From NCBI GenBank assembly GCA_021780755.1, contig JAJXYF010000011.1:1-64000 (forward strand): a stretch of 64,000 nt of DNA, written 5' to 3'. Below the pieces are notes generated by a model. That model was not told the origin of the DNA, searched no databases, and saw only the letters and a list, made by a program, of their open reading frames with translations. Made by a program: the position numbers and the translations under genes. Of the stretch, positions 8,118 through 61,882 are shown one piece after another (position 1 is the first letter of the stretch; every line of letters starts with the position of its first letter). This DNA comes from Deltaproteobacteria bacterium. Its GTDB lineage: Bacteria > Desulfobacterota > Binatia > Binatales > Binataceae.

Positions 8118-9164
8118 TTAGTGTTCGAGGACGCGCGATAGCGCGCGGGCGGTATAGCTGACCAGCGGGATAACGCGGTCGTAGTCCATCCGGACGGGGC
8201 CGACCACGGCGAGGCTGCCGAGCGGTAGCGAGCCGCTGGCGTATGCGGCGGCGACTACGCTGAAGCCGGACAGGCGCGCGTCGAAATTCTCGGAGCCGAT
8301 CGAGATCATGGGGCCGGGATGGCTCAGGCTCTGCTCGAGCAATTCGAGCAGGGCGGTGCGGTCCTCGAGGGCGCGAAGCAGTTCGCGCAGGCGGTTGGGA
8401 TTGGCGAATTCGGGCTGATCGAGCGCCTTGCTGCTGCCGTCAACGTAAAGCTCGGCGGGTGTGGTGCCACGCGCGATGGTACCGCCGAGAATGAGCGCGG
8501 TATGCATGAAGCGGTCGTAGTTCGCGCGGTCCTCTTTGAGGCGCTCCTCGATCCATACGCGGGCCTGATCGAGCGTGCGGCCGCGTAGCGATTCGTTGAG
8601 ATAGCCGGCCATCCGATCGAGTTCGGTCTGGGTGTGATCAGCGTCGGTCTGGACGAAGCGGTTCTGGATGCCGCCGGCAATCGCGACAAAAACCGCCAGC
8701 ACCTCGCGCTCGCGCAGGCGGACGAACTGGACGCGTTCGAGGACGACGGCTTCGAGCCGCGGGGCCATCACGAGCGCGGCTTGCCCGGTCATCAGGGTGA
8801 GCAGGCGGGAGGTATCGCGGATAATTTCGTGAATATCGCCGGTGGGCGCTGAGTAGTGCAGCTCGATTTGGGAGCGATCCTCGAAGCCGATGGGCGGCTG
8901 CGGCATCAGATGATCGACGTAGTAACGAAATGCCTTGTCAGTCGGAATACGGCCGGCGGAGGTATGCGGTTGCACGAGATAGCCGGCGTCTTCGAGATCG
9001 GCCATCAGGTTGCGAACCATCGCGGCGCGCACGCCGAGTTGATGTCGAGCGACGAGTTGCTGCGAGCCGACGGGTTCGGCCGTAGTGATGAATTCCTGCA
9101 CGGCCGCGAGCAGCAGAGTGTGCTGACGGCGCGTGCGTTCTCCATGTGAGTCGCCGCTTTGCAT
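8118..9164 (-). CDS. hrcA: heat-inducible transcription repressor HrcA
   Basis: N-terminal wHTH (TAEPVGSQQLV, VRNLMADLEDAGYLVQPHTSAGRIPTDKAFRYYVD) and C-terminal effector domain. Confidence 0.95.
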   Translation of the reverse strand: MQSGDSHGERTRRQHTLLLAAVQEFITTAEPVGSQQLVARHQLGVRAAMVRNLMADLEDAGYLVQPHTSAGRIPTDKAFRYYVDHLMPQPPIGFEDRSQIELHYSAPTGDIHEIIRDTSRLLTLMTGQAALVMAPRLEAVVLERVQFVRLREREVLAVFVAIAGGIQNRFVQTDADHTQTELDRMAGYLNESLRGRTLDQARVWIEERLKEDRANYDRFMHTALILGGTIARGTTPAELYVDGSSKALDQPEFANPNRLRELLRALEDRTALLELLEQSLSHPGPMISIGSENFDARLSGFSVVAAAYASGSLPLGSLAVVGPVRMDYDRVIPLVSYTARALSRVLEH

Positions 9165-9312
9165 AACGGGGAGCAGACGGGGAATCGCGGGCGGCGTCCG
9201 TGGCTATCCAGGACAGGCGGAAACAGCCAAACGCGTTCCCGAACTGACACCTGTTACAATCTTGTTACGTCGGCGGTCGCCGCACAAGCGCCGCGGCGCG
9301 GATCCATTGGGG

Positions 9313-11095: not shown

Positions 11096-12736
11096 ATGGT
11101 GAAAAAAGCGGGCAAGCGCAAAACCGTCAAGCCGCGTCAGCCGCATATCCCGGTGGTGCCCGACAATGCGTCGTGGATCGAGAGCGACAGCTACGATCGG
11201 CGGGCATGGGCGGATCTCGGGCTGACGGCGCCGACGATCGGCGCGCTGGTGGAGTCTGGCGAGCGGCTGGTGCCGGACTTTGGCGCGCTGCTCCACGACC
11301 TTTTCCTCGGGCTGTTCAAATACAACCTGGTTTGGTTGAAGCCCGACGCGGTGCGGCGCAGCGCGGTGCTCAACCGCACGATCCTGGAGCGGCTGATTCC
11401 GTCGGCGGGCTTCGAGATGCTGAAAGCGCGGACGCTGCTCGAGGAGGACAAGGCGGTGATCGCGGCGCTGGTGCTGGGCGAGCAGGTGCTGGAGCTGGTG
11501 CGATCGGAAAAGCTCGTGAATCGGCGCGATATGCTCGATTTGTGGGACCTCAAACATCAGGAGGAGAGTCTTGCCGAGAGCGCGGCGGCGCTAAAGAATG
11601 CGGTCGAGTTGTCGGAACAGAATCAGCAGGAGGCGCAGGCGCAAGAAAAGACCGCGGGCGACGGTGCGCCGGAGAATGCGGAAAAAGACGATCTACAAAA
11701 GAACATCGACGAACTGAAGGAGGCGGCCGAGCGTGCGACGCGCGTGGCGGAGGCGCGGCTGAACCAGAAGGCGCGGATGTTCGAGGACTCGCTCCGGCAT
11801 AGCGACCAGAGCGAGCTCAAGCGGATGCAATTGCGCAGCGCACAACTGGCCGAGGAGATCGACCGCGTGGCGCAGGACAGCCATGACTTCAGCCTCGAGT
11901 TCGGGCAGGGCGGGCGGCGGTCGGCGGGCGAGCGGTTGGAACTGGGCCGGCGGCTGGCGCGTAATCGCAAGCTCGGGGAACTTGCGCGGCTGGTCGGGCG
12001 CTTCAAGCAGGACGCGCGGGCGCTGCGGCGCAAGACGCTCGACCGCGGAGTGGCGGAGGCCTACGACGTCGAGCGCGGGTCGGACCTCGGGCGGCTGATA
12101 CCGTCGGAGCTGGTCGCGCTGCATCATCCGCAACTGCGCGCGGATTTCCATCGGCGGCTGCTCGAAGGAGCGGTGCTTCAATACCGGCTGCGCGACGACG
12201 AGCAGAAGGGCAAGGGCCCGATGGTCGTGTGTGTCGACGTGAGCTCGTCTATGCAGGGGGACAAGGAGCTGTGGGCGAAGGCGGTCAGCCTGACGCTGAT
12301 GGATATCGCGCGGCGGCAGCGGCGGCTGTTTCGCGCGGTGCTGTTTTCGTCGGGGCCCGAGAGCATGCGGGTGATCGACCTGAATCGCGAGCGGCGTTAC
12401 CAGCCGGAACTGCCGAAGGTGATCGAACTGGCCGAGTACTTTCCCGGCGGCGGCACCGACTTTCAGGCGCCGATCGACGCGGCGATCGAATTGATCGAGG
12501 ACAAAAAGCTCAAGCGCGGCGATATCGTGGTAATCACGGACGGCGAATGCCAGGTGGCGCCGGAGTGGTTGGCGGAGTTGAAGCGGCGCAAGGACGAGAT
12601 GCAGTTTTCGATTTTCGCGGTGCTGGTCGATGTCGGTTCGAGCGACTTATCGACGCTGGCGCAATTCAGCGACCGGGTCAGTTCGGTGACGAAGCTGACG
12701 GTCGAGGGGACGCGCGAAATCTTCCTGAAGATTTGA
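11096..12736 (+). CDS. VWA (CoxE/ViaA-like) domain protein
   Basis: C-terminal VWA: MVVCVDVSSSMQGDKELWAKA...FPGGGTDFQAPI...VVITDGECQV; long alpha-helical N-terminus. Confidence 0.8.
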   Translation: MVKKAGKRKTVKPRQPHIPVVPDNASWIESDSYDRRAWADLGLTAPTIGALVESGERLVPDFGALLHDLFLGLFKYNLVWLKPDAVRRSAVLNRTILERLIPSAGFEMLKARTLLEEDKAVIAALVLGEQVLELVRSEKLVNRRDMLDLWDLKHQEESLAESAAALKNAVELSEQNQQEAQAQEKTAGDGAPENAEKDDLQKNIDELKEAAERATRVAEARLNQKARMFEDSLRHSDQSELKRMQLRSAQLAEEIDRVAQDSHDFSLEFGQGGRRSAGERLELGRRLARNRKLGELARLVGRFKQDARALRRKTLDRGVAEAYDVERGSDLGRLIPSELVALHHPQLRADFHRRLLEGAVLQYRLRDDEQKGKGPMVVCVDVSSSMQGDKELWAKAVSLTLMDIARRQRRLFRAVLFSSGPESMRVIDLNRERRYQPELPKVIELAEYFPGGGTDFQAPIDAAIELIEDKKLKRGDIVVITDGECQVAPEWLAELKRRKDEMQFSIFAVLVDVGSSDLSTLAQFSDRVSSVTKLTVEGTREIFLKI

Positions 12737-61675: not shown

Positions 61676-61734
61676 TGACCCCCATTCCGCAGGGGCGGTT
61701 GCGCAAGACCGCAGGATTTCACGGCAAACAGACC

Positions 61735-61764
61735 GCGAAGATGTTTCACGTGAAACATCTTCGC
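61735..61764. promoter_or_regulatory. parS: parS centromere-like site (ParB binding)
   Basis: Exact TGTTTCACGTGAAACA at 61742-61757 within the 30-bp perfect palindrome GCGAAGATGTTTCACGTGAAACATCTTCGC. Confidence 0.92.
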
Positions 61765-61882
61765 TATCCATACGTTTTGCCGCCCGGCCTCGATTCTGAT
61801 CCGCCGACTTGGCAGCCGGTAGCGCGCCAGCCTTTGTGCGCGCCTGCCCGCGTGTTATGGTCGCGCTTCCTCCAGATTCACG

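Follow-up and report, generated by a model that had tools for sequence, protein, structure and literature searches.

The 64,000-nt window, the whole stretch of DNA analyzed here, contains an exact 16-bp parS at positions 61742-61757 (TGTTTCACGTGAAACA, itself a 16-bp palindrome) that is probably a genuine ParB-binding site and one of 15 copies of an intergenic repeat spread over the chromosome, the parS cores of which may be preserved by ParB recognition. We assign a probability of roughly 0.6 to this reading, which is based on comparisons of DNA and protein sequences. The genome studied (G000) is that of an uncultured soil bacterium of Candidatus Binataceae and consists of 3.9 Mb on 42 contigs with 0.24% contamination. 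In a scan of the window that allowed up to three mismatches, the site is the sole match to parS, while 0.07 were expected. The core sits in a 30-bp perfect palindrome (61735-61764), in which it is flanked by GCGAAGA and TCTTCGC and whose two 15-nt arms (61735-61749 and 61750-61764) are 100% complementary. The site and its palindrome are thus present as described in the sequence-only reading, which also placed them between a cytidylate kinase-like gene and pgpA; Pfam matches agree with both gene assignments (Cytidylate_kin2, PF13189, 60854-61675; PgpA, PF04608, 61883-62344). Both genes are on the plus strand, as is cinA (CinA, PF02464, 62400-63686), which served as the anchor for locating the cytidylate kinase-pgpA locus in relatives. 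The relatives of cinA carry the labels Candidatus Binataceae or Deltaproteobacteria MAG, which places the window in that family. In the region 40000-64000 of the window, GC skew is at first positive and becomes negative at about 40-48 kb.

The window has no parA or parB, as had been noted; the two genes are adjacent to each other on contig C16 of this genome, where gidB, gidA and trmE accompany them in the usual order. Each of three intergenic regions in this cluster contains two parS-type sites separated by about 110 bp. Of these six sites, four are exact and two have one mismatch, and all are in the ori domain with parAB. The three regions are composite units (L008:8003-8159, 9102-9257 and 11275-11427) in which the paired sites enclose a conserved hairpin CGGCATTCCATGCCG and CCGGTAC...TTGTTCG; this intervening element is possibly the site of a second protein. 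The ParB encoded on C16 matches solved ParB structures. In an alignment with Caulobacter ParB (6t1f; chain offset taken as 10), it has R, T, E and G at Caulobacter positions 173, 179, 184 and 201, the residues that decide between parS and NBS; of these, R173 and G201 are reported not to vary among ParBs, while positions 179 and 184 do (PMC7383237). The canonical parS is thus found in a genome whose ParB has parS-type specificity residues. A Noc-binding site was considered and rejected, as Noc needs Q/K/K/R and the only strong ParB_N protein of the genome has R/T/E/G; a second, sub-threshold ParB_N match on C22 was inspected as an ORF only. An SMC gene is also present in the genome, and dnaA is on C38.

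Across the genome, the exact 16-mer is found 19 times on 13 contigs, while the reversed control pattern has no match. Fifteen of these sites, including that of the window, are dispersed beyond the C16 cluster on 12 contigs. Allowing up to three mismatches yields two near-matches with one mismatch and one with two, all within or beside known sites. All 15 dispersed sites are inside a 61-bp repeat with the consensus ACACGAAGGAGAGGCGAAGA-parS-TCTTCGCCGTCTGTTTGCCGTGAAAT. When the 15 copies are aligned on the core, the repeat is asymmetric and ends sharply at -20 and +40, and just outside these limits pairwise identity drops to about 0.33. In the window, the repeat is on the minus strand at 61717-61777, with 100% BLAST identity over 61716-61764 and a diverged distal left part (61766-61777). 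A second motif, GTTTGCCGTGAAA at +28 (61717-61729 of the window, minus strand), is near-invariant in the 15 copies and resembles a degenerate parS; the dispersed copies of the congener G004 have a similarly placed TTTGCGGTGAA. By a rough codon-usage gene call, none of the 15 copies overlaps a called gene, so that the repeat is multi-copy, intergenic and paralogous in the manner of REP/BIME-type elements. The GCGAAGA/TCTTCGC arms belong to this repeat and are common to other copies: symmetry extends six or more bases beyond the core in nine of the 15 copies and one base before the first mismatch in six. The extra 7-bp symmetry pointed out previously is therefore real, but as part of a repeat found at 15 loci it is not independent evidence for the window site. 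A small leader peptide, with GAAGGAG followed by an ATG at the core start as seen by eye in several copies, was also considered and rejected, as its upstream part is lost in the window copy and the frames diverge. A scan of our contig collection, which may not include the window's own genome, with the element and its right flank gave no match.

The core is identical in all 15 dispersed copies, whereas 28 of the 240 positions within eight bases on either side of it are off consensus (11.7%). At that flank divergence, about two of the 15 cores would be expected to be exact, which corresponds to a nominal P of about 1e-13; this value is overstated, because the test assumes independent copies and paralogs share ancestry. 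The exactness of the core is not merely a search artifact, as neither a BLAST search with the whole repeat nor the scan at up to three mismatches revealed any copy that had the flanks only or a damaged core in the genome outside the C16 cluster. The core therefore appears to be under selection, which is the best reading, or otherwise kept exact.

The flanks of some copies are shared further, as mosaic repeats of up to 370 bp at 72% identity. The copy on C34 also holds, as judged by eye against the C16 units, a parAB-proximal composite in which the first parS is decayed and the hairpin CGGCATCCATGCCG and the text through GTTGTTCG are recognizable, which suggests that the dispersed copies may derive from the parAB-proximal unit. 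The copies on C5, C14 and C30 (L005, L007 and L011) are near IS1595 (ISXO2-like) transposases and have common right flanks to about +75 (TTGGCGATTATAACGGACTTGACA); their adjoining genes are unrelated, some of them apparently encoding membrane proteins. IS1595 was rejected as the carrier of the repeat, as transposases are near these three copies only. Another copy (C31:48374; L013:4875) is between bioB and truB, which are on separate contigs in congeners and suggest a synteny break at this repeat.

Most congeners have the parAB cluster only, and parS number in the genus ranges from 1 to 19 by the 16-mer and from 3 to 19 by a 14-mer. Four syntenic loci, those of cytidylate kinase-pgpA (the window's own), ilvD-nadE, gtr-nadK and kinase-acn, are without parS in congeners. 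The cytidylate kinase-pgpA spacer is devoid of parS in all six congeners and in about 24 further members of the family; conservation of the palindrome flank between cinA-pgpA neighbors, which the sequence-only reading had raised, was thus not borne out, and the flanks are conserved instead among the paralogous copies of the same genome. This spacer is about 100 bp long in most congeners, 211 bp in G000 and 273 bp in G004, where it contains a different repeat. At kinase-acn, the spacer is about 15 bp in G004 and 751 bp in G000, with the parS repeat inside. The latter spacer includes an intergenic block of about 740 bp (L006:4750-5500, on C10) that is missing from G004 and in which GAAACCT...AGGTTTC stem-loops flank the parS repeat on either side. 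The cytidylate kinase-pgpA and ilvD-nadE spacers of G004 (L092 and L273) contain the same MITE-like repeat of about 115 bp with inverted ends CTAGGGAACCTCTGC and GCAGAGGTTCCCTAG; because G000 has the parS repeat at these two loci, both spacers may be insertion hotspots. One dispersed site is common to G000 (C26:3597) and G004 (C22:3912), downstream of the same CaiB gene, and in G004 its flanks are diverged while the core is intact, so that essentially no more than the core and a portion of the second motif can be recognized. Empty sites thus exist in relatives, where intergenic DNA is too diverged to fix insertion boundaries or to establish the terminal inverted repeats and target-site duplication expected of a MITE, and the dispersed copies are recent relative to the genus.

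Because the outer base of parS varies in other genera (CGTTTCACGTGAAACG) and the exact 16-mer undercounts parS there, the comparison within the family was repeated with the 14-mer. The 14-bp core is found at 8 to 29 sites in 11 of the 41 Binataceae genomes and at 0 to 3 sites in 56 genomes from other families of the class. Dispersed parS are expanded in other Binataceae genera as well (up to 29), with flanks that are common to the copies of one genome but differ by lineage. In G039, G020, G026 and G004, and weakly in G012, the flanks are pairwise more alike than shuffled controls. Many dispersed sites of G039 (L186, L187, L189, L191, L195 and L199) consist of two perfect parS in tandem, spaced 29-33 bp apart. 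In genus g15, AGTTCAGGAGAACGAAACRCGAA directly follows parS. A scan of seven g15 genomes anchored on this flank found 44 copies, of which, as counted from the listing, about 32 retain the 14-bp core and seven have nothing similar, and hence the flank also occurs without parS.

The location of the window near the origin, which had been considered probable, was not supported by the genome-wide survey. It is conceivable that the sites form an ordinary origin-proximal array with the window near oriC: the parS sequence is canonical, C38 carries two dispersed copies in addition to dnaA, and sets of 20-23 origin-proximal parS are known from Streptomyces and Listeria (PMC7333895). We nevertheless consider such an array improbable. 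The contigs with parS sites total 1.97 Mb, and the smallest arc that includes every site measures 1.51 Mb, which is 38.6% of the assembly (36.6% after completeness correction), even when the two end contigs are allowed to be mostly outside of it; given draft metagenome-derived genomes, such positions are bounds from contig arithmetic rather than measurements. With one replicon and correct binning, as assumed for this bound, the sites cannot all be origin-proximal; according to reviews, by far most parS are found in the 20% ori domain (PMC7022226). In addition, the window contig carries neither parAB nor dnaA, and the window site is missing from congeners. Orientation of the repeat has no consistent relation to local GC skew. 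Of the two outcomes that the sequence-only reading had named as counting against it, many scattered copies of the 16-mer were largely found, whereas a genome devoid of ParB homologs was not. In Caulobacter, extra parS are tolerated chiefly where they lie less than about 500 kb from ori and are disfavored in mid-arm (PMC5815017); functional parS throughout a genome would therefore be unusual, which counts against the reading that we favor.

The copies could also be selfish or neutral passengers of a REP- or MITE-like repeat that happened to include parS, in which case the exact cores would be due to a recent spread or to gene conversion, or the element and not the cell would profit from the binding of ParB. 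The sharp difference in 16-mer number among congeners, the mosaic flanks and the block inserted at the acn locus are compatible with passengers, and SGI1 offers a precedent of a mobile element that exploits parS (PMC10954446). Recent spread or gene conversion, however, predicts flanks as uniform as the core, and the flanks vary; moreover, the copy common to G004 retains nothing beyond the core and a portion of the second motif. We thus regard passengers as unlikely, although less so than an origin-proximal array. It is more improbable still that the palindrome functions as an RNA hairpin, a terminator or a cruciform and resembles parS incidentally. Its RNA folds as a 13-bp stem (z of about -5), and there is a terminator-like match on the minus strand, but the genes on either side are encoded on the plus strand, for which no terminator with a GC stem and T tract was matched. 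Although selection for a hairpin would allow compensatory change, the core has none in 15 copies, only some of which have perfectly symmetric arms, and an Rfam search found no match.

The dispersed copies of a ParB-binding parS, the reading that we favor, have partial counterparts in known systems. As in the clusters by parAB of Bacillus, Caulobacter and Streptomyces, the 16-bp sequence is the same, ParB is of the parS type and a conventional cluster (parA-gidB-gidA-trmE) is present, but those sets are mostly confined to the ori domain (PMC7022226), whereas G000 has 15 extra exact sites in a repeat. The parS5-parS10 of Pseudomonas aeruginosa are likewise away from the cluster, two of them opposite oriC, but are imperfect palindromes predicted in coding sequence (PMC4368675), while the copies of G000 have perfect cores, are intergenic by rough gene calls and have paralogous flanks. 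The parS-like repeats of SGI1 are also sites on a mobile sequence that are bound by the ParB of another replicon (IncC parABS; PMC10954446); SGI1, however, is an integrative element with two copies, and the repeat of G000 is short, non-coding and spreads the host chromosome's own parS. REP/BIME elements and MITEs are similarly short, partly palindromic, intergenic, multi-copy, lineage-specific and mosaic, from which the repeat differs in having only about 15 copies and an invariant core predicted to bind protein. Thus, parS itself is known, as are dispersed imperfect parS in P. aeruginosa (PMC4368675); in the open-licence papers searched, a scope outside which the main survey of parS sites (Livny 2007) falls, we encountered no description of a perfect parS that has spread in copies of a paralogous repeat.

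We propose that a parS-bearing intergenic repeat spread chromosome-wide, mostly after the species split from its nearest sequenced congeners, and that the perfect cores may persist because the C16 ParB still recognizes the copies. In known systems, ParB loads at parS and recruits SMC (PMC7333895); by extension, ParB-CTP clamps would likely load both at the parAB-proximal cluster and at the dispersed copies and would recruit SMC there, so that numerous small points of ParB/SMC loading would take the place of a single origin domain. We infer such ParB occupancy and SMC loading, as well as a benefit to the cell and a mechanism of copying. More tentatively, and with doubt prevailing, mobile intergenic repeats of Binataceae may have captured parS repeatedly and broadcast working ParB/SMC loading sites over the chromosome, which would make it multi-centromeric. 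It is an open question why species differ in parS number and why the sites are clustered (PMC7333895), and experiments in Caulobacter and Bacillus suggest a cost of extra, widely spaced loading sites (PMC5815017; PMC8357415). The congeners, with 3 to 19 sites by the 14-mer, provide natural before-and-after pairs for these questions. Copying of a perfect parS within a paralogous repeat is a possible route for the spread of centromere sites, and repeated capture, if true, would explain how parS number changes so fast between close relatives.
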